Notes under the pieces: generated by a model
Database searches by the model: none
What the model saw: only the letters and a program-made list of their open reading frames with translations
Told to the model about the DNA's origin: nothing
NCBI GenBank assembly: GCA_020073185.1
Contig: JAIQFT010000034.1
Span: forward strand, 1 to 59,137
Length of the DNA stretch: 59,137 bases
Reading direction: 5' to 3'
From: Terriglobia bacterium
GTDB taxonomy: Bacteria; Acidobacteriota; Terriglobia; Terriglobales; Acidobacteriaceae
Program-made: the position numbers and the translations under genes
Shown here: positions 804 to 45,640 of the stretch, piece by piece
Layout of the letters: each line of letters begins with the position of its first letter
Numbering within the stretch: position 1 is the first letter of the stretch

Positions 804-1688
804 ATGAAGCGGCTGATCATCAACGCCGACGATTTCGGCCTCACGCGCGGCGTCAATCGCGCAATCGCCGAAGCCCATGAGCGGGGCGTGGTCACCTCCG
901 CCACGCTGATGGCGAGCGGGCCCGAATTCGACGAAGCCGTCGCGCTCGCCCGCGGTCTGCCGCAGATATCGGTCGGCTGCCACGTTGACCTGATCCAGCT
1001 CGCGCCGGTATCGCCGCCATCGCAACTTCCCACCTTGGCGCGCGATGGTTACTTTCGCCCCGGTTTTGCGCGCTTCGCGCGGGCAGCCCTGCGCAACCGC
1101 CTCTCCGCCGACGAAATCAGGAACGAAGCCGGCGCGCAGATGGGCAAGCTGCAATCCGCCGGAATCACCCTCACTCACTTCGACACTCACAAGCACACGC
1201 ACCTGTTTCCGCGGGTGCTTGGTCCGTTGTTGCAGGCGGCGAAGGAGCGCGGCATTGGCGCGGTCCGCAATCCGTTCGAGCCCGACCCGATCGTCCGGCT
1301 GGTGGAGGTGTCATCGCGACCGAAGCTGCTCAGCCGCTACTGTGCAGTGCGCGTGTTCCAGTCCATGGCGGGCGAATTCCGCAAGCTGGTGGAAGCGGAA
1401 GGACTGGCCACAACCGACGGCACCGTCGGCATCGTGCTCACCGGATTCCTCGACCGGCGGCGCTTGCGCGCCTTGATCCAGCGCATCCCGGAAGGCACGT
1501 GGGAGCTGGTGACGCATCCCGGTTACAGCGACGCCGCGCTGCGTCCCCTGAGCGCGCTCACGGCTGCGCGCGAAACCGAACTCGCCCTGCTGACGTCGGC
1601 CACCACACGCGACCTTTTGCAGGAATGTGGCGTGCAACTGATCTCGTACCTCGATCTGGTTTCACATCCCTGCGCGGTTGGCGCCTGA
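804..1688 (+). CDS. ChbG/HpnK (YdjC-like) carbohydrate deacetylase
   Basis: This 294-residue protein has the fold and metal-site pattern of YdjC/ChbG deacetylases. The N-terminal motif INADDFG (residues 6-12) supplies the metal aspartate, His60 sits in GCHVDL, and the FDTHKHTH motif (~126-133) supplies the second histidine. The family removes acetyl groups from N-acetylated sugars; HpnK members are linked to hopanoid side-chain synthesis, which is common in acidobacteria. No hopanoid genes are visible beside it, so the substrate is inferred only from family resemblance. The start is the ATG at 804, the first in frame. The preceding gene is the oppositely oriented tRNA, so transcription is probably independent. 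Confidence 0.85.
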   Translation: MKRLIINADDFGLTRGVNRAIAEAHERGVVTSATLMASGPEFDEAVALARGLPQISVGCHVDLIQLAPVSPPSQLPTLARDGYFRPGFARFARAALRNRLSADEIRNEAGAQMGKLQSAGITLTHFDTHKHTHLFPRVLGPLLQAAKERGIGAVRNPFEPDPIVRLVEVSSRPKLLSRYCAVRVFQSMAGEFRKLVEAEGLATTDGTVGIVLTGFLDRRRLRALIQRIPEGTWELVTHPGYSDAALRPLSALTAARETELALLTSATTRDLLQECGVQLISYLDLVSHPCAVGA

Positions 1689-1806
1689 ACCGCGCGGAGC
1701 GCCGCAGGATCCTGAGAGCAGCGACGGCAGGACGACCGTCTTTGGAAGACGCGCGGGAGCCCTCTCCGCCCGGGATGACAGCGCCTCCAGAAAAGATGAA
1801 ACGGCG

Positions 1807-1980
1807 CTAGCCGCTGCTGGAGGCCTCGGTGGCGGTGAAGGCGCGCTCCGGGGCCGGCTGCGAGTCGCGTCGCATGGCGTGAAGCATGAGAGCGACGGCG
1901 GCGTAACCGAGCATGACGCCGATAGCCACCGCGGCGGTGATAATGACGAGAAGCGTGAGTGCGACGATCAACGGATTCAA
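1807..1980 (-). CDS. Small single-span membrane protein (57 aa)
   Basis: A short minus-strand frame begins with TTG after the purine-rich GGAAAGGGCGG. It encodes one strongly hydrophobic helix (LIVALTLLVIITAAVAIGVM and onward, residues ~4-33) followed by a charged tail (HAMRRDSQPAPER). It occupies an otherwise empty gap between the deacetylase and the next small gene. The composition is what one expects of a real small membrane protein rather than a shadow frame. Function is unknown, and the TTG start makes the call tentative. Confidence 0.45.
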   Translation of the reverse strand: MNPLIVALTLLVIITAAVAIGVMLGYAAVALMLHAMRRDSQPAPERAFTATEASSSG

Positions 1981-2144
1981 GTTCGACCGCCCTTTCCTTG
2001 GATGCGGTCTCCAGCACCCTGGATGGACCGCCGAAGAAGCCGCCCTTCAACTCGCCGACGCGAGCCGGAAGGCAACCATTTCGTTGTTAGGACAGCTCGA
2101 ATTCACATCCGGTTAAGCCGGGAAAATTCACTTAGTTGTTTCAT

Positions 2145-2366
2145 TCACTTTTTCTTTTCCGCGTTCCAGATGGTGCGCGAAACCGCTCGTCCGCAAAACG
2201 GACAAAAATTCATCGGATACAGATTGGGCCGGTCCTCCGGCGAGCGCACCGCATAGTCGGAATCGATCTCGTTCAGGATGCGCCCGTGCATGGTGCGCAG
2301 CGGCTGGTTGAGGATGGCATCGCCTTCCACGGAGTCCTGCAGCATCTGGCAGCAATGTTCGGTCAT
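2145..2366 (-). CDS. Small Cys-containing hypothetical protein (73 aa)
   Basis: The protein carries a C-terminal FCPFCGR pair of cysteines and an N-terminal TEHCCQM pair, so it could bind one zinc ion. The middle (SDYAVRSPEDRPNLYPMNF) is hydrophilic. I chose the ATG at 2366. A longer start at 2405 would lie inside a 14-bp direct duplication (gatggtcgctggcc) and looks like an extension artefact. I cannot assign a function. It ends in a lysine-rich tail and points away from uvrA. Confidence 0.6.
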   Translation of the reverse strand: MTEHCCQMLQDSVEGDAILNQPLRTMHGRILNEIDSDYAVRSPEDRPNLYPMNFCPFCGRAVSRTIWNAEKKK

Positions 2367-2613
2367 AAAGAAGCCGATGGTCGCTGGCCGATGGTCGCTG
2401 GCCACCAGCCGACCCAGAGGTCGTTCGGATTTTCGGCCAACCGAACACTGTAGCTCCTGTTGACGCCGGCCGCTGTTAACAACTAGGATACGGAGTAGAG
2501 TTGCGCTTCTTCACTGTCGGACTTTCTAGGGGAGCCGTCCACGTCTCCAAGGGACATGGTCTGCGGGAAAGGCACGAAATACGCGGGAGGGGGCCCGCGC
2601 CACATTTTTTTCC

Positions 2614-5406
2614 ATGGCGATTACCAAGATTTCGGTCCGCGGGGCGCGGCAGCATAACCTCAAGAATATCGACGTCGAGATTCCGCGCAACGCGCTGACC
2701 GTAGTCACCGGGCTGAGCGGATCGGGCAAGTCGTCGCTGGCCTTCGACACCATCTACGCAGAGGGACAGCGGCGCTACGTGGAAACGCTGTCGGCGTACG
2801 CGCGGCAGTTCCTCGATCAGATGGAGCGGCCGGACGTGGACGCGATTGACGGGCTGAGCCCATCCATCTCCATCGAGCAGAAAACCACCAGCCGCAGCCC
2901 GCGTTCCACGGTGGGCACCATCACCGAAATTTACGATTACCTGCGTCTGCTGTACGCGACCGTGGGCGTGCCGCACTGTCCCAAATGCGGACAGCCGATC
3001 TCGCGGCAGTCGGCGGAACAGATCGTGTCGCGGGTGATGGCGCTGAAACCGGAAGAGCGGGTGATGATCCTGGCGCCCATCGTACGCGGGCGCAAAGGGG
3101 AATTCAGGAAAGAGATGGAGAAGCTGGCGCAGCACGGCTTCCCGCGCGCCCGCATTGACGGCGAACTGGTGAACCTGGAAGAAGACATCCGCCTCGACAA
3201 GCGCAAGAACCACACGATTGAAGTAGTCATCGACCGCCTGCTGGTGAAACCGGGCATCGAGAAACGGCTGGAACAGTCGGTGGCGCTGGCGATGAAACTT
3301 ACCGTCGGACTGGTACAAGTAGTGGTAGTGGGAGGCGAGGAACACCTGTACTCCTCGCGGCTGGCGTGCCCGGATTGCGGGATCAGCGTGCCGGTTCTGG
3401 AGCCGCGCTCGTTTTCGTTCAACAGCGTGTACGGCGCGTGCAAGCAATGCAACGGGCTGGGCAGCAAGTACGATTTCGACCCGGCGAAAGTAATCGTCGA
3501 TTGGTCGAAGCCGCTGCTGGACGGCGCCCTGGGGCCCGGCTCGGGCTCGGCGAACTTGCGGCACATGGTGCAGATCGCAGCCGCGTCGGCCGGCATCGAC
3601 TTGAATACGCCGTTCGAACAACTGCCGGCCAAAGCGCAAACCTTCCTGCTGTACGGCGCCGAGGCGAACGGCTCGCCGCGCATCGGCTGGCGCGGAGTTC
3701 TGGCGTTTATGCGGCAGACGCTGGAGGAATCGACGTCGGAAGGCTATCGCGAGTGGCTGCTGAATTACATGAGCGCCACCGAATGTCCGGCGTGTCATGG
3801 CAAGCGGCTGCGGCCGGAAAGCCTGGCGGTGAAGGTGAACGGGATGTCCATCGCCGACTTCACGGCGTTGCCGGTTTCGCGCGCCATCGGTGCGGTGAAG
3901 CAGATCAGCCTGAGCGAGCGCGAGGCGCAGATCGCCGGGCGCGTGGTGAAGGAAATCGCCGAGCGCTTGCAGTTCCTGAATGCGGTCGGGTTGGGATACA
4001 TCTCGCTGGAACGCTCGGCGGCAACGCTGTCGGGCGGAGAGGGGCAGCGCATCCGGCTGGCAACGCAGATCGGATCGAAGCTGCGCGGCGTCCTGTACGT
4101 ACTGGATGAGCCTTCGATCGGGTTGCACCATCGCGACAACGACCGGCTGCTGCAGGCGCTGGAGTCGCTGCGCGATCTGGGCAACACGGTGCTGGTGGTG
4201 GAGCACGACGAGGAGACGATCCGCCGCGCCGATTACGTGATCGATCTGGGCCCCGGCGCCGGACGACATGGTGGCGCGCTGGTGGCTGCGGGCACTCCCA
4301 AGGAGATCATGGAGGCGCCGGAATCGCTAACCGGACAGTACATCTCCGGCAAGAAGAGAATCCCGCACCGGGCGGAGAGGCGGCACACCAACGGCCACGC
4401 CGTCAGCGTGCTAGGAGCGCGCGAGAACAATCTGAAGGGTCTCGACGTCTGTTTCCCGCTGGGCGTAATGACATTGGTAACGGGTGTGTCCGGCTCGGGA
4501 AAATCCACGCTGGTGAACGACATTCTCTATCGCGCGCTGGCCAAACAGCTATACCGGTCGCGCGAAGAGCCTGGCGAGCACAAGGCGATCGCGGGCGCGG
4601 AGAACATTGACAAGGTCATCCGCATCGACCAGTCGCCGATCGGGCGCACGCCGCGCTCCAACCCGGCTACCTACACCGGCGTGTTCACGCACATCCGTGA
4701 TCTCTACGCCATGCTGCCGGAATCGCGCGAGCGCGGTTACAAGGCGGGACGGTTCTCCTTCAACGTGCCGGGCGGACGCTGCGAAGCCTGCCAGGGCGAA
4801 GGGCAGCGCCGCATCGAAATGAATTTTCTGCCCGACGTGTATGTGCAGTGCGAGGTCTGTGGCGGGCGGCGCTACAACCACGAGACGCTAGCCGTGAAGT
4901 ACAAGGACTCTTCGATCGCCGACTTGCTGGAGATGCCGGTCGCGGACGCGTTGCCGGTCCTGGAAAACATTCCCCAGGTCCGCCAGAAGCTGCAAACGCT
5001 AGTGGATGTCGGGCTGGGGTACATCCATCTGGGGCAGTCGGCGGTAACGCTGTCGGGCGGCGAGGCGCAGCGCATCAAGCTGGCGCGCGAGTTGTCGAAA
5101 CGCCAGACCGGACGCACGCTTTACCTGCTGGACGAGCCGACGACCGGACTGCATTTTGACGACGTGCACAAACTGCTCGAGGTGTTGCATCGGCTGACGG
5201 ATTTGGGCAACAGCATCATCATCATCGAGCACAATCTAGACGTGATCGCCAATGCCGACTGGATCGTGGACCTGGGCCCCGAAGGCGGCGAGGACGGCGG
5301 GCGCATGGTCGCGCAGGGCACACCCGAGCAGGTGGCAAAGATGAGGAAGTCGTACACCGGACAGGCCCTGGCGGAGTACTTCAGCCGGCGCGCGGCGGTG
5401 GTTTAG
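2614..5406 (+). CDS. uvrA: UvrABC excinuclease subunit A
   Basis: UvrA is the damage-sensing ATPase of nucleotide excision repair; it works as a dimer and loads UvrB on distorted DNA. The 930 residues match the usual length (~940). Visible parts in order are Walker [10 protein letters not shown] (33-41), the UvrB-binding and insertion domains with a CPKCG zinc site (~residue 125) and a CPACHGKRL site (~390), the first ABC signature LSGGEGQR (~471), a second Walker [10 protein letters not shown] (~625), the zinc module CEACQGEG...CEVCGG (~722-748) and a second signature LSGGEAQR (~812). The ATG at 2614 opens the standard [19 protein letters not shown] start. The 3' end overlaps the convergent sensor gene by 26 bp. 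Confidence 0.98.
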
Positions 5407-6208
5407 TCTTTGCGGACGCCGCCACCGGAGAGCCGCGAGTCTCGCGGTCAATTTCAATGCCGCGCAGCCCGGCGAGTTGTCCGCCGATGGAGTAAAGCAC
5501 GGCCCGGCCCATGACGCGGCGCGGTTCGGCCTGGTTCACGAAGACACGATACTCGGCTTCAAATTCCCCCTCCACCAGCGCGCGATCAAGCGCGGCCTTC
5601 ACGCGATTCCGGTCTTCGGGATGAATGGATTCCAGCCATATCTCCACCGGTTCTTCCCGGCGCATGGCAATCGTGCTGTACATGTTGGTCCAGGTGACGC
5701 GCCGGTTTTGCAGGTCGTACTCCCACGTCCAAATCTTGGCGGTGCTCTTGAGGAACTCGATTTCTTTCCGCTGCAGGGTGACGGACTGCTGCGCGCCGCG
5801 CACGGCCTGCTCCTTGCGCTCAACCAGCGCCGCCAGCAGGCAAATGATGAATGAGGTGAAGGCAAAGGCGATCAGGCGAATCCAGTCGCTGCGGTTTTCG
5901 ATCAGCAGGACCGAAGTCAGGCGCGGCGACTGGTTGGGATTGTTGACGAGCGAGTCCCAGGTGGGACGAAGGAAAAAGATGTCGCTGGCGAACATGGAGA
6001 GCGCCGCCGCCACCGCGCCCGCCTGCCATCCGCCCTCAAAGGCGGAAACTGCGACCGCCGCCAGGAAAATACTGAAGAACGAGTGCAGTTCGACGTCGGG
6101 TACTTGCAGGGTGATCAGCAGGGCAATTGCGACCAGCATCGCCGGTCCGATGTACCAGCGCACCAAGCGGCTGTTCGCAGCTTCGGCGACGAACTTGAAA
6201 CGGGGCAT
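5381..6208 (-). CDS. Membrane PAS-domain sensor (DUF4118-like)
   Basis: The 275-residue protein starts with several hydrophobic segments (~17-40, 45-75, and about 125-140) typical of a compact DUF4118-like sensor membrane module. A short coiled linker with [11 protein letters not shown] follows, then a PAS fold (~165-260) with the motifs [15 protein letters not shown] and [13 protein letters not shown]. There is no kinase, cyclase or HATPase domain, so it must pass a signal through a partner or be a truncated derivative. The ATG at 6208 is the start that immediately precedes the first membrane helix; longer starts add low-complexity sequence. It is divergent from the CPBP protease gene. Confidence 0.72.
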
Positions 6209-6300
6209 AGGCGTGGTTGGCAACAGTGTAGCGGAAGATAGCGCGCTGTGAAACGCGAAGATACACGGCGATTTGCGGCCTGCCTGACATCCAAGTAGAG

Positions 6301-7146
6301 TTGTCATCGAGGCTAAATCGTTTGCCCCACAGCAAGAATCCGCCTTCCCCGGAGCAACAGAACACTGCGCCTTGGGCTGGAGAAGCGCACGCACCGTCGC
6401 CGGGCAAGGCCGTGGCTGAGGATCCGCCGTGGGGAATTGGGGATGTGGTTCGCATCGCGGTGGTAGCGGCAATCGCGATCGGCCTGTTCAGCATGATCGC
6501 GATGGGAGTGGCGATCACGAATGCCGGCCCCGTGCACGTCTCCACCTCCGATCTGGCGCGCAATCCGCGGGTGGTGGTTCCGGCGCAATTCGCCGCCTAC
6601 CTGGTGGTGGTGATCTACATGGTGTGGCTGGTGCGGTCGCCAGGACGGAGCTTCTGGCCCGTGGTCGGCTGGCACTGGCCGCGGGTAAGGTGGGTGGGAT
6701 GGGCCGGACTCGGTGTCGCGCTGGCGCTGATGGTGCAGGCCGCGTCGACCTTGCTGCCGATTCCCCAGTCGCTGCCCATCGACCGCTATTTCCGCGACAC
6801 CGCGGGCGCCTACATGATGACGGTTTTCGGCGTGACCTTCGCTCCCTTGGTCGAAGAACTGTTCTTCCGCGGATTCATGTATGCCGCCCTGGCACGCCGG
6901 TTGGGAATGATGGCGGCGGTGCTGATCACGGCGGCGCTGTTTGCCTTTATCCACACCTCGCAACTGGCCAATGCCTGGGCGCCGCTGTTGCTGCTGTTCT
7001 TCGTCGGCGTGGTGCTGACGGCGGTACGCGCGCGCACGGGATCGGTGGCGACGACGTTTCTTGTCCACGTTGGATACAACGGCACGCTGTTCACCCTGCT
7101 CTACGTGGCCAGCGACGCCTTCCGACACCTGGAAAGGCTATCCTGA
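6301..7146 (+). CDS. CPBP-family intramembrane glutamic protease
   Basis: The protein has about 281 residues and several membrane spans. The three conserved CPBP (Abi/CAAX) motifs are visible: EELFFRGFMY with the paired catalytic glutamates, FAFIH, and HVGYNG. Members cleave prenylated or membrane substrates or act in bacteriocin self-immunity; the substrate here is unknown. The N-terminal ~40 residues are proline-rich and poorly conserved, so the TTG start at 6301 is uncertain and a start nearer residue 40 is possible. It stands alone, 92 bp from the divergent PAS sensor. Confidence 0.82.
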   Translation: MSSRLNRLPHSKNPPSPEQQNTAPWAGEAHAPSPGKAVAEDPPWGIGDVVRIAVVAAIAIGLFSMIAMGVAITNAGPVHVSTSDLARNPRVVVPAQFAAYLVVVIYMVWLVRSPGRSFWPVVGWHWPRVRWVGWAGLGVALALMVQAASTLLPIPQSLPIDRYFRDTAGAYMMTVFGVTFAPLVEELFFRGFMYAALARRLGMMAAVLITAALFAFIHTSQLANAWAPLLLLFFVGVVLTAVRARTGSVATTFLVHVGYNGTLFTLLYVASDAFRHLERLS

Positions 7147-36946: not shown

Positions 36947-37612
36947 CTATTCGCCCGTGGCCATTGCGGCCGTCCCTGCCTCGCTCGCCGGTCCCGGTGT
37001 TTGACTTGCCGAAGCGGGCACCGTCGGCAGCAGCGCAGCGTGGATGGCTTCAAGCACCATCCTTATCGTTGCCGGGATCTCCGCCGCGCTACTGCACTGC
37101 TCCAGCAGCAGGGCTCCGTATCCGCCCGCATCTCCCTTTCGTGCAATGAGGACCTTTTCTGCCAGTTGCCGCACATGATCCTCGGCCATCCCAGCGACAA
37201 TCTTTGGAAGCTTGCTCGGGTAGTCTGCGCGATCCTTCACATCCTTGAGGAAGCGCCTGAGTGTCGATATCGGAGTTTCGTTCACTAGCACCTTTTCGAT
37301 CCCACTTTCAGGTGACTCCCAAGCTGCGAGATAACCTGAAAGCTGCTCCGTTGCCTCAGCTGACAGCGGAGTCTTAGGCTTGTCGTAGAAAGCAAAGGCC
37401 TGCTTCCCAAGGAGTTCAAAGATGGGACCGCACTTGGGGACGGAGCCATCGCCGCCTGCATTGAACACGGTACTGCCGGCGAGGTCGAAATAGGCATAAG
37501 AATTCGGTGTCAAGCCGGCTTCCATTACGGCCGAAGCAGCCGGGAAAACAGCTGCCTCTGTGGCTCCCTCGACAACCAAGACTGCGCGGCTCAGCGCAGC
37601 CTCCGCAAACAC
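36947..37612 (-). pseudogene. OLD-family nuclease, 5'-truncated TOPRIM fragment
   Basis: The fragment (~221 residues) carries the C-terminal TOPRIM domain of an OLD-family ATP-dependent endonuclease: LVVEGATEAAVFPAAS (glutamate motif), AYFDLAGSTVF and FAFYDKPK (aspartate region), and a tail KVLIARKGDAGGYGALLLEQ. The whole ABC-type ATPase half that should precede it is missing. The homology begins at ~37610, exactly where the IS66 transposase ends, so the insertion or a deletion beside it removed the front. OLD proteins act in phage defence or nucleic-acid processing; this copy cannot work alone. Confidence 0.8.
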
Positions 37613-38466
37613 AAATAGGCTTGATGATTCTTTCCTCGGCCCTCGTGCGTCTGGACATCAACCGGGGTTTCGTCCGCCTGAATGTAAGTTCCGCTGATCA
37701 ACTCTCGCCTCATCGCGGCGACCATAGGGATCAGCAACTCGCCGACTTTGAGGACCCAGCCGTCCAGCGTTGCTCGGCTGATTTCCAAGCCGATGTCTCT
37801 TTCCAGAATCATGCTCTGCCGATGCAGGGGCGTGTGATTGCAATATTTGCTGACGATCGTATCGATGACGAGGCGGTCACTCGCCAGGCATTTCTCGATG
37901 ATCCGTGGCCGCAGTGGGGCCGAAACCACTCCAAGTTCCCCGCACGCGCGGCAAGCCCGTTTCTTTCGCTTCGTGACCAGAACGAAATACTTCGCCGGCT
38001 CCACATCCAACTGGGAACTCTCTTCGTAGCCGATCACCACAGTTTCTTTGCCGCAGCGTTTGCAAAGGCGCTGATCCGGCGTGCAAGGCAGAATCCGCCC
38101 TACGCGAGGAAGATTCGGAGGCAATTCCTGGCGGCCCGGATGCTTGCCGGATTTCTTGGTCGAGCGATGCACTGGCGCGTGCTCGCTCTCCGCCTGCTCG
38201 ATCATTTCACTGACGACGGGCTCAAGTTCGAACAATTCCATTTGCGCTTGGGAGAGCTTTTCGCCACCCACTCCGTATTTCTCGATCCGCATCAGCCGCA
38301 GACGCTTTTCCAACACGCGAATCCTCAGCTCCGCGTATTGCAGCCGGCTCTTCAGTTGTGCGATGAGTTCCAGATCGGCTGGTGCTGAAGGAATGGGAGG
38401 CGCACACACAATGGGTAACTGATTTACCAGAGTCGATTCGAAACGTTCAAGCAACCAAGCAATCAT
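37591..38466 (-). pseudogene. tnpC: IS66 transposase TnpC, C-terminally truncated
   Basis: The ATG at 38466 overlaps the stop of tnpB by 4 bp. The retained part has a leucine-zipper-like start, a zinc finger (CKRCGKETVVIG, then CRACGE), a helix-turn-helix region and the first catalytic aspartate (YIQADETPVDVQTHEG). After HQAYL the homology ends and five junction residues (CLRRLR region) run to a stop. The second Asp and the Glu of the DDE triad are missing (normal length ~500), so it is inactive. Confidence 0.88.
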
Positions 38467-38837
38467 GCGGCAGCATGTCCTTCGGGTGGAGCTTTCCGAT
38501 ACCACCGCTTGTGCTTGGTTTTGGCCAGATCAATCCCACCTAACAGTAGGGACAGCTCTTCGTGACTCAGGGCGACCTTGCCCTGGGCATCGCCGGTTTG
38601 CGGCCAGGTGAAACGCCCCTTTTCTAATCTCTTGGCACAGACCCAAAGTCCGCTTCCATCCCAGACGAGGACCTTCAACCGGTTGCGCTGGGCGTTGCAG
38701 AACAGGAAAAGGTGTCCGCTCAGAGGCTCGCACGACAATCGATCCCGGACCAGTCCGTACAGCCCTTCGAACCCCTTGCGCATGTCGGTGACCCCGGCGG
38801 CCAAATAGATCCGTGTGGCTGGACCCAGTCCAAACAC
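38463..38837 (-). CDS. tnpB: IS66 accessory protein TnpB
   Basis: The 124-residue protein has the typical TnpB (IS66 Orf2) start IYLAAGVTDMRKGFEGLYGL, then LFLFCNAQRNRLKVLVWDG and WVCAKRLEKGRFTWP. It is an accessory of transposition, intact as read. It overlaps tnpC by 4 bp and follows tnpA by 3 bp. Confidence 0.92.
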   Translation of the reverse strand: MFGLGPATRIYLAAGVTDMRKGFEGLYGLVRDRLSCEPLSGHLFLFCNAQRNRLKVLVWDGSGLWVCAKRLEKGRFTWPQTGDAQGKVALSHEELSLLLGGIDLAKTKHKRWYRKAPPEGHAAA

Positions 38838-38840
38838 GGC

Positions 38841-39209
38841 CTACACCCGCTCCAGCACACTCACCAGGCGCTCGAACGTATTTGAATCAAAATCAGGATG
38901 TACCTCGATCCGGCGCCCGCCCGGCAGCACCACGGCCAGCCCACAAGTCGCCGCGACGTGCGTGGGCGATACCTTTGCCGCCAACTCCACCTTCACCAAC
39001 CGGCCAGACCGGCCGGTCGAAGAAGCTGCCCTACTTTTCCTCTTCCAGCGTTGCTTCTTCAGATGCCGATTCAGCGTGCCGAGGCTCAAACCCCGACTGC
39101 GGCAAAACGCACTGCGTAGCATGCCGCTGCTCACAAACTCCGCCACCAACCGCTGAACTTCCGCTCGCGTACGTCGCTTGGGCGCTACAGACTTCCTTTC
39201 TACGGTCAT
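38841..39209 (-). CDS. tnpA: IS66 accessory protein TnpA
   Basis: The 122-residue protein has a basic helix-turn-helix start (KRRTRAEVQRLVAEFVSSGM, then RSAFCRSRGLSLGTLNRHLK) as in IS66 Orf1, and a C-terminal VVLPGGRRIEVHPDFD. It is intact and lies nearest the IS end at 39266, as expected. Confidence 0.88.
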   Translation of the reverse strand: MTVERKSVAPKRRTRAEVQRLVAEFVSSGMLRSAFCRSRGLSLGTLNRHLKKQRWKRKSRAASSTGRSGRLVKVELAAKVSPTHVAATCGLAVVLPGGRRIEVHPDFDSNTFERLVSVLERV

Positions 39210-40736: not shown

Positions 40737-43049
40737 TCAACCGCCACCGGGGGAAGCCGGTTCGGCCGCCAAACAGCCTGCTCTGACCACTTCCACGGTG
40801 GCGTTGTAGTCCGGCACACCGCTGGGATCCAGGCGCCCCGCGGGAATAATCACGTTGATCTCCGGCCAATGAGCCTGCAGACAGCCGGGCTTGATTCGGT
40901 CGATCTTCACCCGGCCATGGAAGTCGCCCAGTTCGTTGCGCAGGGTGATGGCGTCGCCGTTCTTCAAACCTAGCCGGACAGCGTCGTCCGCCGACATAAT
41001 GATGTCGTCGCGCCGCGCCCCCGTAATGGGGTCGGTCTGATTGAGCAGGATGCTGTTGAACTGTTTTCCACGGCGCGTCGACAGCAGAAAGTGTCCTTCC
41101 GGCACTCGTTCTTCGCGTAAAGCGACTGCGGTGAAGTGGCCTTTGCCGTCCGAGGTCAGGAACCTGTCCGCCAACAGGCGCCGCCCTCCGTACTGGAAGT
41201 TGTCGCCTTTCTTGCGCATCTTGGCGATGCCGCGGTAGGTGGGGCACACCCGGTCGATCTCCTCGCGGATTTCCTGCGTGTCCTGCCAAGGGAAGAATTT
41301 GGGCCCGCGGATGGGATCGAATTTTCTGGCCACGAGGACCGGGATTTCCCACTCGTCTTTGGCTTCGCCCGGACGCGGCCCGGGGATTTCCGGACTGTAG
41401 ATAATGCGCCGCTCTGTGCTGGTTTCAGTTCCGCCGCCGCGTTGCTCGTAGCGGGTGCGCGAAGGCAGCATGACCACAGTGTCAGCGGGGTCCACCAGCA
41501 TGGTGGGGTTCGCCACAATGTCCTGATGGATGCGCAGCTTGATTCGTCCCAGGGCGCGCTCGACAAGGTCAGGTTCGGGCAAGGTCTGCTTGAAGTTGCC
41601 GCCGGTTTGCCAGAGCGCGTCAATCTCGCCGCGCTCGGCGGCCAACACCATGTGTGCGGCGCTCAGTCCCTTCCAGGAGGGCGGCTCGAAACCCCACAAC
41701 TCCGGCAGCGCAAATTTCTTCGCGTTCTCCGGGTTGGCGGTGAAGCCCATGATGTAAGCGCTGGGCATCCCGCCCATTTCTGCTCCGCCCTGGACCCCGC
41801 TGTGGCCGCGGACGGGCATGAGTCCGGTATGAGGCCGTCCAACATTACCCCGCGCCAGTTGCAGGTTGACGATGGCGCGCACGTTGTCGCTGCCAAAGGC
41901 GTGCTGCGTAATACCCATGCTCCAGGTGACGATGGCGTGACGTGCCTTGCCGAAGGCCTCGGCGAAGCGAAACATGTCGCCGCGGGACAGACCCGAGCCG
42001 GTCTCCAGCGCCTCCCAGGTAAGGCTCCGGGCCTTGGCGTCCGTCTGCTCCCAGCCGACCGTGCGGGTACGGATGAATTCCCGGTCCACCCAGTCGTTTT
42101 CGATCAGGTGCTTGAGCACGCCATAGAAGAAGGGGATGTCACCACCGGCGTGAATCTGGAAGAAATCGTCGACGATCTTGGTGCCGAACAGGGCGCTCTC
42201 GACAACCGAGGGTACCCAGTAGCGTTCCAGGCCTGGCTCGAAATAGGGATTGACCAGGAAAACCCTGGTCCCTGCCTTCTTGGCATAATGCAGGTACTTG
42301 GTGGCGACCGGTTGATTATTGGCGATATTCGTGCCGACCAGAACTACAAGGTCGGCTCCCACCCAATCGGAATACGAGCAGGTGGTCGCGGCACAACCTA
42401 CCGTGGAACTCAAGCCGGCGGTCGAGGGCGCGTGACAGATGCGGGCGCTGGTGTCCACGTGGTTGGTGCCAAGAAAACGCGCCACCTTCTGGTGAGCGTA
42501 GTACGCCTCGTTGGTCAGTCCACGGGAAGTCATGTACCAGGCAAGGCGCCTGGGGTCGATGTCGCGGAGTTTCCCGGCGATGAGAGAGGTGGCCTCGTTC
42601 CATGACAATTGTTGAAATCCCTTGTCCCCTTTGCGCCGAACCATCGGCACCGCCAGCCGGCCCATGCGGCGCAGCTGTTTTTCGCTCTTGTCGCGCAAGG
42701 CACCGACATCTTCCAGCAGACGCCAGTTCATGGCGGGCATGGTGTTCAGGCGCAGCAACTGCAAGCGGACATTGCACAGGTGGATGCCTTTCATGGTCCA
42801 ATCGTGCAGGCCGGTGGTGCCCAGGGAGCAGCCGTCGCAGCAACCGTCGCGTAAGATGCGCCAGGCGTAACCCAGATTGTCCCGGTTCTCTACGATGCAT
42901 TCGAGAATGTCCTCATAGGCGTTGGGATGTTGCTGGTTCACGCCGTAAGGCACCAGGCTCGCCCACTGCTTCGGATTCCAGCCTTGGGACTTGTCCTCCG
43001 CCTGACCATCGGATCCGATCTGCATCAGGTCGGGGTTGATTTCCATCAT
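40737..43049 (-). CDS. FdhF/YdeP-family molybdopterin oxidoreductase (Cys type)
   Basis: The 770-residue protein is a bis-MGD oxidoreductase of the FdhF/YdeP group. An iron-sulfur-like start (GCCDGCSLG, residues 69-77) is followed by the catalytic stretch ARICHAPSTAGLSSTVG. That stretch aligns with the selenocysteine region of E. coli FDH-H (ARV-Sec-HGPSVAGL), so Cys205-His206 fill the Sec-His positions. Further blocks are VVLVGTNIANNQP and TWSMGITQHAFGSDNVRAI. It lacks a signal peptide and is likely cytoplasmic. Formate is the likely substrate given the OFA transporter downstream, but YdeP members have other roles. SD GAGGAG precedes the start. Confidence 0.85.
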   Translation of the reverse strand: MMEINPDLMQIGSDGQAEDKSQGWNPKQWASLVPYGVNQQHPNAYEDILECIVENRDNLGYAWRILRDGCCDGCSLGTTGLHDWTMKGIHLCNVRLQLLRLNTMPAMNWRLLEDVGALRDKSEKQLRRMGRLAVPMVRRKGDKGFQQLSWNEATSLIAGKLRDIDPRRLAWYMTSRGLTNEAYYAHQKVARFLGTNHVDTSARICHAPSTAGLSSTVGCAATTCSYSDWVGADLVVLVGTNIANNQPVATKYLHYAKKAGTRVFLVNPYFEPGLERYWVPSVVESALFGTKIVDDFFQIHAGGDIPFFYGVLKHLIENDWVDREFIRTRTVGWEQTDAKARSLTWEALETGSGLSRGDMFRFAEAFGKARHAIVTWSMGITQHAFGSDNVRAIVNLQLARGNVGRPHTGLMPVRGHSGVQGGAEMGGMPSAYIMGFTANPENAKKFALPELWGFEPPSWKGLSAAHMVLAAERGEIDALWQTGGNFKQTLPEPDLVERALGRIKLRIHQDIVANPTMLVDPADTVVMLPSRTRYEQRGGGTETSTERRIIYSPEIPGPRPGEAKDEWEIPVLVARKFDPIRGPKFFPWQDTQEIREEIDRVCPTYRGIAKMRKKGDNFQYGGRRLLADRFLTSDGKGHFTAVALREERVPEGHFLLSTRRGKQFNSILLNQTDPITGARRDDIIMSADDAVRLGLKNGDAITLRNELGDFHGRVKIDRIKPGCLQAHWPEINVIIPAGRLDPSGVPDYNATVEVVRAGCLAAEPASPGGG

Positions 43050-43061
43050 GATCTCCTCGGG

Positions 43062-43442
43062 CTAACCCGCCCATTCCGCTGCGGCGGTGCGTCCGGCTTC
43101 CCGGTTGAAGTCGGCGGAGGCCTCCTCCGCAGTGTCAAAGGTCTGAAAGACCGTGGCCAGTTTGGTGATCTGGAGCACATCTTTGACCCGCCCGGTCAGG
43201 CCGGCGAGCTTGATGCTGCCTCCCCTGTTGCGCGCCGAGGTGTACAGGCTGACCAGTTCACCCACACCAGTACTGTCGATGTAATGGACATCCGCCAGGT
43301 TCAGCACGATCTGGCGGGACTCGTGCAGCAGGTCTTTCACTTGGTGGCGCAGGAAAGCAGTCTCCTCCCCAAAAACGATCCTGCCCTTGCAATCCACGAT
43401 CACCGCGTCGCCGAAGGTCCGACAACTGGTTTCCAACTGCAT
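43062..43442 (-). CDS. STAS-domain protein (anti-anti-sigma type)
   Basis: The 126-residue protein is one STAS domain: start MQLETSCRTFGDAVIVDCKG, core IVLNLADVHYIDSTGVGELV with the phosphorylatable Ser in DSTG, then LAGLTGRVKDVLQITKL. Such proteins are switched by serine kinases in partner-switch regulation. Here it lies between an acetate transporter gene and a molybdoenzyme gene, 12 bp before the latter. No anti-sigma kinase is visible nearby. Confidence 0.88.
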   Translation of the reverse strand: MQLETSCRTFGDAVIVDCKGRIVFGEETAFLRHQVKDLLHESRQIVLNLADVHYIDSTGVGELVSLYTSARNRGGSIKLAGLTGRVKDVLQITKLATVFQTFDTAEEASADFNREAGRTAAAEWAG

Positions 43443-43626
43443 GGCAACAACCTCTTCTATGGCGGTCGTCGAGCAAACTCCAGGCCCTTCACAAATACTG
43501 TGGAAGGCTTCCATCGGGAGCAGGCGGCTGTACCGCGTGCCGGTGCGCCTTACCGAGAGGATTCGGCTCCGTCCTCCGAGCAATGCCTGCCTTCGTCACC
43601 CTGCTGCCTGCGAACCTTCACGACGC

Positions 43627-44220
43627 TTATTTTTGGATCGGCCCAACCGGCAGTACTTCCTTTCCATAGGAATCGTTGATGACGATGGCCGCCATCAGGT
43701 ACCAGGCCGTAAAGGCACAGAAGATTCCCTCCCAGCCAGCGACATGCGTGATGGTCCCGCTGCCCGTCCACACGGCGACATCCAGGAGGATGAACAGAAT
43801 CAGCAGGGTGGTGAAGACCCAGATCAAGGCCTTGCTGTGTTTCAGGCTCGCCACCCAGAGAACAAAGGTGAAGATCGTCCAAGCGATCAGGGTCGTCACC
43901 AGCCAGCCTTTGACCTTGTCCGGCGCAACCCACTTGTTCATCTCCATGAGGACCATGCTGGCGAGCGAAATCCAGAATGCCCCATAGGAACCAAAGGCCG
44001 TCATGCCGAAGGTATTGCCGGTGCGGAACTCCAGGAATCCGGCGATGAGCTGGGCCAGGCCGCCGTAGAAGAGGCCCAGAGGCAAAGCGGCCCCGATATC
44101 GATGAGCCCTGCGTTGTGGACATTGAGCACAAACGTGGTGAGCGCGAAGCCCCCCAAGCCGAGTGGACCCGGGTTGGCCAGCTTCGGCAGGCTCGCGTAG
44201 ATCTGCTCCCGTGCTGCCAT
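43627..44220 (-). CDS. satP: SatP/AceTr acetate-succinate transporter
   Basis: The 197-residue protein has six hydrophobic helices and the GPR1/FUN34/YaaH signature [18 protein letters not shown] at residues ~16-33. The signature's NPAPLGL-like form, the conserved Asn and the size match SatP. The family imports acetate and succinate with protons. The ATG at 44220 is preceded by GGAGACG. It is the first gene of the run satP-STAS-fdh-OFA. Three GTGA-N6-TCAC boxes lie 100-220 bp upstream. Confidence 0.88.
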
Positions 44221-44319
44221 CTTGCGTCTCCATTCTGTTGCCCGCGGGTCAGCGCGGCGACTTCCATCCAACTGGTTTTCGTGGCGCGCCGCCTGGATGG
44301 GCAGTTGGGCGGATTTTGA

Positions 44320-44333
44320 ATGAAAGCTTTCAC
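44320..44333. promoter_or_regulatory. CRP/FNR-type box 1
   Basis: ATGAAAGCTTTCAC differs by one base from the perfect palindrome GTGAAAGCTTTCAC. It has the GTGA-N6-TCAC layout recognised by CRP-type helix-turn-helix proteins and is centred 22 bp from box 2 (two helical turns). Confidence 0.65.
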
Positions 44334-44341
44334 GAATATCA

Positions 44342-44355
44342 GTGAAAGCTTTCAC
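44342..44355. promoter_or_regulatory. CRP/FNR-type box 2
   Basis: GTGAAAGCTTTCAC is a perfect 14-bp palindrome, GTGA-N6-TCAC. It lies upstream of satP and divergent from the membrane-protein/Crp genes. Confidence 0.7.
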
Positions 44356-44398
44356 AATTGCAGGAAAAGTATTTGCATCGTGCCCCCCAATGCTTACC

Positions 44399-44411
44399 AT
44401 CGTATGACGAT
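44399..44411. promoter_or_regulatory. ATCGT-ATG-ACGAT dyad
   Basis: A perfect inverted repeat with 5-bp arms and a 3-bp spacer. A near copy (10 of 13 bases identical) is at 51602-51614, upstream of the NarK-fusion gene. It is flanked by TATAT. The cognate regulator is unknown. Confidence 0.45.
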
Positions 44412-44426
44412 ATATCTTCTAAATCC

Positions 44427-44440
44427 GTGAAAGCTTTCAC
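44427..44440. promoter_or_regulatory. CRP/FNR-type box 3
   Basis: A second exact GTGAAAGCTTTCAC. It is 55 bp upstream of the small membrane-protein start at 44495 and thus well placed to act on the rightward promoter. Confidence 0.7.
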
Positions 44441-44494
44441 GGAATGTCCGGCAGGCTTTTCTTAAGCTCTATGGAGAAGAAAAAGGAGCGTGGG

Positions 44495-44869
44495 ATGGAA
44501 AAGCCAGCAAGAGAGCCGCTCTTCACCACCAAGGAGCTGTTGGCGTTCGGTTTGATGGCCATCGTGTACAGTGCGATCCTTTTCTCGCTGGACCCCGAAT
44601 GGGTCGCCTGGGCCGCTCCCCTGGCTTTTGGAGGCGCCCTGTACGCTCAGGACCCGCCGCCCGCTTCTGTCCACCTTGGTTCGCCTCAGCAGGTCTTTCA
44701 GGCGGCGTACTTGTACAGCATCCTCAGCCTGCTTGCCATAGGAGTTGTCACTTTCCTCAGGCACCGGCAGTCCTTCCGTTCCCTTTCCTGGCTGGAGGTC
44801 AAGAACAAGAGCATGGCAAGGCTACGAAGCTCCTTGAGGTCGATCTCGTTGCCCATGACCGGCCCTTGA
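44495..44869 (+). CDS. Small two-span membrane protein (124 aa)
   Basis: The ATG at 44495 follows the ribosome-binding site AAGGAGCGTGGG; an ATG at 44471 is the weaker choice. The product has two hydrophobic helices (~16-35, 65-85) joined by an acidic and Pro-rich loop (ALYAQDPPPASVHLGS), then a basic tail. No family is recognised. It is followed by the Crp/Fnr gene 63 bp later on the same strand, so it may share its control. Confidence 0.65.
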   Translation: MEKPAREPLFTTKELLAFGLMAIVYSAILFSLDPEWVAWAAPLAFGGALYAQDPPPASVHLGSPQQVFQAAYLYSILSLLAIGVVTFLRHRQSFRSLSWLEVKNKSMARLRSSLRSISLPMTGP

Positions 44870-44932
44870 CTTGCCAAGCGTGCTAGCATCCTTCTTCGCA
44901 ACGCTGATCATCCCGGACATCGAGGAAAACGT

Positions 44933-45640
44933 GTGTGGCAGCAGTTCATCACAGCCCTGGATCTGTTTCGAGGGGTCTCGCGTCGGGAAGCCCAAAAGAT
45001 CTCCAGCCTCTGCACGGAGAAATGGTTTCCGCAGGGAACCAGGATTTTCTCGGAAGGAGATCCCAGCGAATCCCTCCATATCCTCAAGAAAGGCGTGGTG
45101 AAGCTGATCTCTTTGTCCGACAAAGGGAGGGAAACGATTCTGCACATCCTCGAACCGGAAGAAGTTTTCGGGGAGCTTCTGCTCTCCGAAGCGAAACGAC
45201 CGTTTACTGCCATCGCGATTGAAGACGCGCTGGTCACCAGCATCTCCCGAGAGTCGTTCCTGAAGCTCCTCTCAGTGGCCCCTGCCGTCTCCCTCAACTT
45301 CATTCGACTGATCTCGAAGCGATTGGCCCGCGTAGAAACGGGAATGGCAGAATTCAGTCATACTTGGTCCTACCATCGGTTGGCCAGAGTTCTTCTCCAG
45401 TTAAGCGAGAAGTACGGAGAGGAAGTCCCCACCGGCACCCTGATCACGGTGCGTTTAACCCATGAAGATCTGGCCAACCTGATTGGGACAAGCCGGGAGA
45501 CGGTGACCACTCAACTCAACAAATTCGCTCGCATGGGCTTTGTGAAGCGCCGCGCCCGGCGCCTCATCGTCGCCAAGTCCCGCCTGGCGAACTTCATTCG
45601 CTCGGAAGAGCTCCGACTAAAGAATCCGCCGATTGCGTAG
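44933..45640 (+). CDS. Crp/Fnr-family transcription regulator
   Basis: The 235-residue protein has a cyclic-nucleotide-binding-type N-terminal domain (GTRIFSEGDPSESLHILKKG and so on, ~35-130). The C-terminal winged helix carries a recognition helix HEDLANLIGTSRETVTTQLN (~185-204). The Arg-Glu in SRETV matches the residues by which E. coli CRP reads GTGA, in line with the GTGA-N6-TCAC boxes upstream. There is only one N-terminal Cys, so an FNR-type [4Fe-4S] is unlikely. The ligand is unknown. The start is GTG at 44933. Confidence 0.9.
   Translation: MWQQFITALDLFRGVSRREAQKISSLCTEKWFPQGTRIFSEGDPSESLHILKKGVVKLISLSDKGRETILHILEPEEVFGELLLSEAKRPFTAIAIEDALVTSISRESFLKLLSVAPAVSLNFIRLISKRLARVETGMAEFSHTWSYHRLARVLLQLSEKYGEEVPTGTLITVRLTHEDLANLIGTSRETVTTQLNKFARMGFVKRRARRLIVAKSRLANFIRSEELRLKNPPIA

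Follow-up and report, generated by a model that had tools for sequence, protein, structure and literature searches.

Three CRP-like boxes between a satP-type transporter gene and a crp gene are probable operators of a locally acting Crp/Fnr-family regulator

The window analysed here, the whole 59,137-nucleotide stretch of contig JAIQFT010000034.1 from a Terriglobia bacterium, holds three closely related palindromes in the 274-bp gap between satP and the gene of a small membrane protein, and the locus raises the question of whether these boxes are operators, which protein would bind them and what binding would do to the genes on either side. A sequence-only reading of the same DNA had listed the three boxes, with a distance of 22 bp between the first two, and had assigned them to the Crp/Fnr-family protein encoded from 44933; a check of the sequence bore out both the positions and the spacing (Table 1), the centre-to-centre distances being 22 bp for boxes 1 and 2 and 85 bp for boxes 2 and 3. 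Our answer is that the three boxes are, with high probability, real operators. We also think it quite probable that they belong to the 44933-45640 protein, with box 3 activating the operon of the membrane protein and crp, box 2 most likely activating satP and box 1 perhaps capping the latter.

Table 1. Features of the satP-crp region in window coordinates; the -10 hexamers and transcription starts are proposals.
Feature	Position	Strand	Sequence or start codon	Remark
Box 1	44320..44333		ATGAAAGCTTTCAC	one change; weaker; separates box 2 from the proposed -10 of satP
Box 2	44342..44355		GTGAAAGCTTTCAC, perfect	proposed activating site for satP
Box 3	44427..44440		GTGAAAGCTTTCAC, perfect	proposed activating site (-41.5) of the membrane-protein-crp operon
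satP	43627..44220	minus	start codon 44220	GPR1/FUN34/YaaH-family acetate transporter
Small membrane-protein gene	44495..44869	plus	ATG 44495	124 aa; DPEWV and DPPP stretches; no known family
Crp/Fnr-family regulator gene	44933..45640	plus		235 aa; presumed to bind the three boxes
Proposed -10, membrane-protein-crp operon	44463..44468	plus	TAAGCT	start probably near 44475
Proposed -10, satP	44313..44318	minus	CAAAAT	start possibly near 44306; weaker

The box is rare in its own genome. With at most one mismatch allowed, the 14-mer is found at four places among 4,655,450 bases (4.66 Mb), three of them in the satP-crp gap, and the reversed pattern, used as a control under the same limit, is found at none; the sequence-only reading had named such a genome search as a check, and its outcome is far from the many random occurrences that would have spoken against a function. 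The fourth copy (on C31) falls, on both strands, within short reading frames. Within the window, a search with up to three mismatches gives five matches, the best three being the boxes of the gap, against 2.05 +/- 1.34 in shuffled sequences, of which 4 in 100 reach five. Across the order, the exact 14-mer is present in two of the 200 genomes drawn, our own included, and in the other genome both copies fall within long reading frames. Palindromes do, of course, arise randomly, and the genome has one extra one-mismatch copy in a coding region; against this, three of the four genomic copies are crowded into 121 bp and nine loci share the arrangement. We give next to no credence to a reading of the boxes as chance palindromes or as a functionless repeat: a chance origin is ruled out by conservation. 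The looser pattern GTGA-N6-TCAC, on the other hand, is not specific and would by itself prove nothing. It occurs at 187 places in the genome compared with 31 for the reversed pattern, an approximately sixfold excess that could be caused by codon effects or by other Crp/Fnr proteins.

Across genomes, the boxes travel with one type of crp gene. Eleven other genomes were found to encode relatives of the regulator, with identities of 41-73%, making 12 with the window's own: the named species genomes of L066 and L067, four from the phylum of L067 (G623, G621, G596 and G598) and five from the order of L066 (G823, G1082, G1045, G953 and G1050). L066 comes from an Acidobacteriaceae MAG (73% identity) and L067 from a Candidatus Methylomirabilota MAG (68%), so box-bearing close relatives of the protein come from two named phyla. 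The gene was found in 6 of 396 genomes of the L066 order and, at E <= 1e-40, in 5 of 95 genomes of the L067 phylum, L066 and L067 themselves included. The best other Crp match among 100 relatives of our genome has an E-value of 1.0e-30 (33% identity) and none of the matches listed there exceeds 37% identity, and no match beyond the own gene was found at E <= 1e-45 in 396 genomes drawn from the phylum; the scan of named species genomes gave five further matches, all in Rhizobiaceae and at ~30% identity. At every one of the nine loci with at least 61% identity (the window and eight others at 61-73%), boxes precede the crp gene pair. Their form varies: L067 has a single box, GTAAGACCTTTCAC, with three changes from that of the window, and L085 has a third box at 3262 with two mismatches. 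The more distant relatives in G621 (51%), G596 (43%) and G598 (41%) were left out of the nine-locus counts and have no box within 1500 bp upstream, with the exception of one three-mismatch match 1448 bp upstream of the pair in G596, which by reading lies within a neighbouring transporter gene. At the G596 locus (G596:C157:27239-28600), crp is present twice in tandem, both copies being 43% identical to the query, and the adjoining gene reads as that of an MFS transporter.

The search for the consensus GTGAAANCTYTHAC in 14 genomes, with palindromes counted once, points in the same direction. In the box-bearing genomes, 18 of the 20 matches fall in the gap that precedes the crp pair, namely 2/2 in our genome (G000), 3/3 in G594, 2/2 in G823, 2/3 in G953, 3/3 in G1045, 2/2 in G1050, 2/2 in G1082 and 2/3 in G623; of the two exceptions, the one in G953 is in none of the long reading frames found there, and the one in G623 is inside the crp gene itself. 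G595 has no match to the strict pattern, and its one match to the looser GTGAAANSTYTHAC sits in its crp gap. In the same-genus genome G001 both of two matches are inside reading frames, and G002, G621, G596 and G598 have zero matches to GTGAAANCTYTHAC. As the two patterns were derived partly from the same sites, the counts for the first loci are not independent. The distribution suggests a narrow regulon whose target set would be essentially one divergent gene pair; a wider, weaker regulon may still exist, the strict pattern missing weaker sites such as box 1.

What kind of protein would read these boxes? The product of the gene is a member of the Crp/Fnr superfamily (PF00027, E 1.9e-21; PF13545, E 4.2e-17; PF00325, 24.9 bits against 21) and stays below the cut-offs of the CRP (NF008732, 74 bits against 266), FNR (NF008365, 53.8 against 228) and NtcA (TIGR03697, 66.3 against 244.95) models. 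The SRETV recognition helix reported by the sequence-only reading is present, and [S/T]RET[V/A]TTQL is found at 9 of the 9 box-bearing loci. The further claim that this helix reads GTGA as in CRP is incomplete as it stands: the conserved half-site is GTGAAA and therefore bases inside the N6 matter too. A strict link between helix and box also has an observation against it, G621 having the same RETVTTQL helix and yet no box within 1500 bp upstream and no match in the whole genome. In its GTGA half-sites, their 6-bp interval, the SRET helix and a distance of 29.5 bp between box centre and -10, the system resembles class II activation by E. coli-type CRP. It differs from E. coli-type CRP in the longer half-site, in the concentration of consensus matches in a single gap per genome and in the helix going on as TTQL. 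The CRP recognition helix has an arginine where the window protein reads TTQL.

The cassette for the cyclic nucleotide is altered in this protein. An intact cAMP pocket has a GEL...R-S/T cassette; here, GEL and the arginine are kept, the loop has one residue less, and after the arginine come P or A and then F. The closest solved structures are actinobacterial and CRP-type (3d0s, 3mzh, 3h3u, 4cyd and 4byy; best E 2.8e-30 over residues 7-219), and compared with them the cassette is one residue shorter and reads KRPFTA in place of PRTSSA. The anaerobic, FNR-like control hinted at by the sequence-only reading found no support. A conserved set of cluster-binding cysteines is absent among the nine loci: the window protein has a single cysteine, at position 27, seven of the nine have one at 23-27, L100 has one only at 46 and L101 has none. 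Without the conserved set, the protein is not an FNR-type cluster sensor.

Binders other than the neighbouring protein have to be weighed. Rex, a regulator tied to the NADH/NAD+ ratio, has the operator consensus TTGTGAA-N4-TTCACAA, and genes for acetate, formate and lactate are its typical targets. The GTGAA-AGCT-TTCAC of our boxes fits the GTGAA-N4-TTCAC core of that consensus, and the genes around the gap fit the typical target list; the boxes of the window nevertheless lack the outer TT and AA, they track one crp gene from genome to genome, and elsewhere sites are few. That the boxes are Rex operators tying these genes to the NADH/NAD+ ratio thus seems very improbable to us, and Rex was rejected as the binder: its N-terminal domain (PF06971) has 0 matches in our genome, as against matches in 7 of 14 control genomes. 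Another Crp/Fnr protein of the same genome could be the real binder and the neighbour incidental, and 14 matches to the query in the genome, the own gene among them, as well as the excess of GTGA-N6-TCAC over its reversed control, speak for such a paralog. We hold this to be improbable too. G001 has 10 Crp-type matches, the best of them only 28% identical to the window Crp, and a satP that is 75% identical to ours, yet no box near that satP, and boxes occur where close relatives of the window Crp occur, in both of the named phyla. The protein encoded from 44933 remains our preferred binder, which we infer from this co-occurrence.

The best-supported mechanism would be the activation by the regulator of its own operon. 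A CRP site centred at -41.5 from the start is a common activating position (PMC10328515), and it implies a distance of 29.5 bp from the box centre to the first base of the -10 hexamer. Measured from the middle of the crp-side box, a TAnnnT hexamer lies downstream at exactly 29.5 bp in all nine box-bearing loci. In the first four, the hexamers are TAAGCT (window), TAAAGT (L066), TATATT (L067) and TATTCT (L085), and any other offset from 15.5 to 60.5 has TAnnnT in at most one of the four; the five held-out loci then gave TAAAGT, TAAGGT, TAAAGT, TAAACT and TAAAGT, five out of five at 29.5 bp. No offset was common to all four, all five or all nine loci in any of 20,000 mononucleotide shuffles, which keep the base composition only and not dinucleotides or relatedness. 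The number of independent lineages is about four, because L066 and the five loci of its order, six of the nine, come from related genomes. The spacing on the crp side is thus that of a class II Crp-dependent promoter. A plain sigma-70 scan of the gap returned zero promoters, as expected for activator-dependent promoters and no proof of them. Most likely, then, the regulator activates the operon of the membrane protein and crp: a dimer would sit on box 3, centred at -41.5 from the predicted start, and occupancy of the box would switch on the operon by way of the proposed TAAGCT -10, amounting to positive autoregulation. The autoregulation proposed by the sequence-only reading has accordingly gained strong support, both from the boxes before crp and from the -10-like hexamer at class II spacing at nine of nine loci. 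Closer to crp, another motif, TGCTAGCATCCT (window 44881-44892), is by eye common to the window, L066 and L097-L099. It is preceded by TTGAAC at ~18 bp in L066 and L097-L099 and at only 12 bp in the window, and in those four loci the pair looks like a second, ordinary crp promoter.

On the satP side, the picture is less tight. The satP product of the window clearly belongs to the satP/yaaH acetate transporters (PF01184, E 1.1e-43; NF038013, 189.7 bits against a cut-off of 50), and its gene differs from theirs in standing opposite a presumed private Crp-type regulator. The divergent gene is a GPR1/FUN34/YaaH-family transporter at seven of the nine loci, with PF01184 matching in the window, L066 (partially), L098, L099, L100 and L101, and L097 assigned by its closely similar translation. 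At L085 it is instead an MFS transporter that passes the L-lactate transporter model NF049980, and at L067 a SLAC1-family protein (PF03595) scoring below the cut-off of the TDT model; L067, with one box and no satP, is left out of the satP-side counts, and L085 enters the crp-side counts only. Box 2 is perfect at all seven satP loci. An nAnAAT hexamer (CARAAT, CACAAT or GACAAT) lies towards satP at 29.5 bp in five of them and at 30.5 bp in two, the window included, a hexamer that was chosen after looking, is without the first T and varies in spacing by 1 bp; at L085, no such hexamer is found at 29.5 bp. The control of satP that the sequence-only reading had proposed therefore stands by position at seven of seven loci and is less tight in its promoter, the hexamer having been picked afterwards. 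We consider it likely, from the position of box 2, that the regulator activates satP as well, a dimer on this box switching the gene on in class II fashion through the proposed CAAAAT.

Box 1 may cap this activation. Lying between box 2 and the putative satP -10 and being the weaker site, it would, when filled, block RNA polymerase and limit satP expression. Its half-sites have one mismatch in the window, two in L066 and 3, 3, 2, 4 and 5 in L097-L101, and the sites of L100 and L101 (four and five mismatches) are beyond the search cut-off, hardly recognisable and scored by position; the distance from box 2 nevertheless stays at 21-22 bp at the satP loci. The linker of 7-8 bases between the two boxes is AGATATT or AGCTATT in six of seven loci and TGATATTC in the window. 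This strongly conserved linker and the fixed box distance would suit side-by-side repression, and it is possible, if doubtful, that the same regulator on the same boxes represses satP, with the TATT between boxes 2 and 1 as a -10 blocked by dimers, and activates its own operon. TATTGT is, however, kept in only five of seven loci, being lost at both loci with 22-bp spacing (TATTCG and TATTTC), as against seven of seven for nAnAAT at 29.5 or 30.5 bp, and by eye no -35-like hexamer stands at the right distance; activation of satP from box 2 is the reading that we prefer. Two other stretches of the gap were looked at. A sigma-54-like site seen by eye on the minus strand at ~44375-44395 was dropped. 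The stretch ATCGTATGACGATATAT (window 44399-44415) resembles the palindrome TATCGTATAACGATATA upstream of satP in the box-less G001 (L021, ~1184-1202) and is perhaps the site of another regulator.

The sequence-only reading had extended the control to the fdh gene. In the window, satP, a STAS gene, an FdhF/YdeP-like gene and a lactate-type transporter gene are consecutive on the minus strand. According to which start is taken for STAS, it lies 43 or 184 bp from satP, and no terminator-like site was found on the minus strand in 43000-43700. With the genes on one strand and no terminator found there, co-transcription of satP, STAS and fdh is possible, and only through it might the regulator reach fdh. 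In G001, which has neither boxes nor a close Crp relative, an inverted STAS gene separates satP from the fdh-like gene. Some neighbouring genes may be mentioned here. Directly past the transporter that ends the satP-fdh run, window 37591-39209 holds a gene set that looks like one of the IS66 transposase type. In the G001 region with the inverted STAS gene (L029, 7600-13585), genes that read as multihaem cytochrome c nitrite reductase-like lie upstream of satP. In L066, the stretch beyond crp (1674-6533) contains, by reading, genes for methionine sulfoxide reductases, acetate kinase and phosphoketolase, and these would agree with an acetate theme.

A small membrane protein of 124-135 residues with invariant DPEWV and DPPP is encoded upstream of crp at seven of the nine loci, L066 and L067 having other small hydrophobic proteins in its place. 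It has no Pfam or NCBIfam match better than E 0.011 and no match outside its own genome among 100 relatives, and its predicted structure, which consists of helices only, is poor (mean pLDDT 60.1, pTM 0.31). Encoded between promoter and crp, it is a candidate partner of the regulator. One may go further and picture a self-contained, horizontally spread switch for carboxylate uptake, made of a private Crp, a GTGAAA operator, two class II promoters back to back, a weak box that limits the transporter and a new membrane protein through which the signal would come in, holding or releasing the regulator; we regard this extended scheme as rather unlikely in its entirety.

Taken together, the locus represents an ordinary type of local circuit that is well conserved and includes a small membrane protein. 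Circuits of this kind are known, and this one is new as far as the open-licence PMC literature can tell: the exact 14-mer was not found there, a search for satP or acetate transporters with CRP binding sites gave nothing beyond E. coli diauxie, one for the Crp/Fnr family with Acidobacteria and acetate gave nothing, and none of the matches listed for GTGAAA/TTTCAC with Crp was on the subject by its title. For a Crp/Fnr subgroup there is now a putative operator, with predicted start sites and with targets that come down to essentially one pair of divergent genes, and with these its DNA specificity and its effector, whatever signal it would sense, become directly testable. The small membrane-protein family is flagged by its place between promoter and regulator. 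More generally, following boxes and their promoter spacing from genome to genome makes it possible to pick out, from many paralogs, a local regulator whose regulon is narrow.
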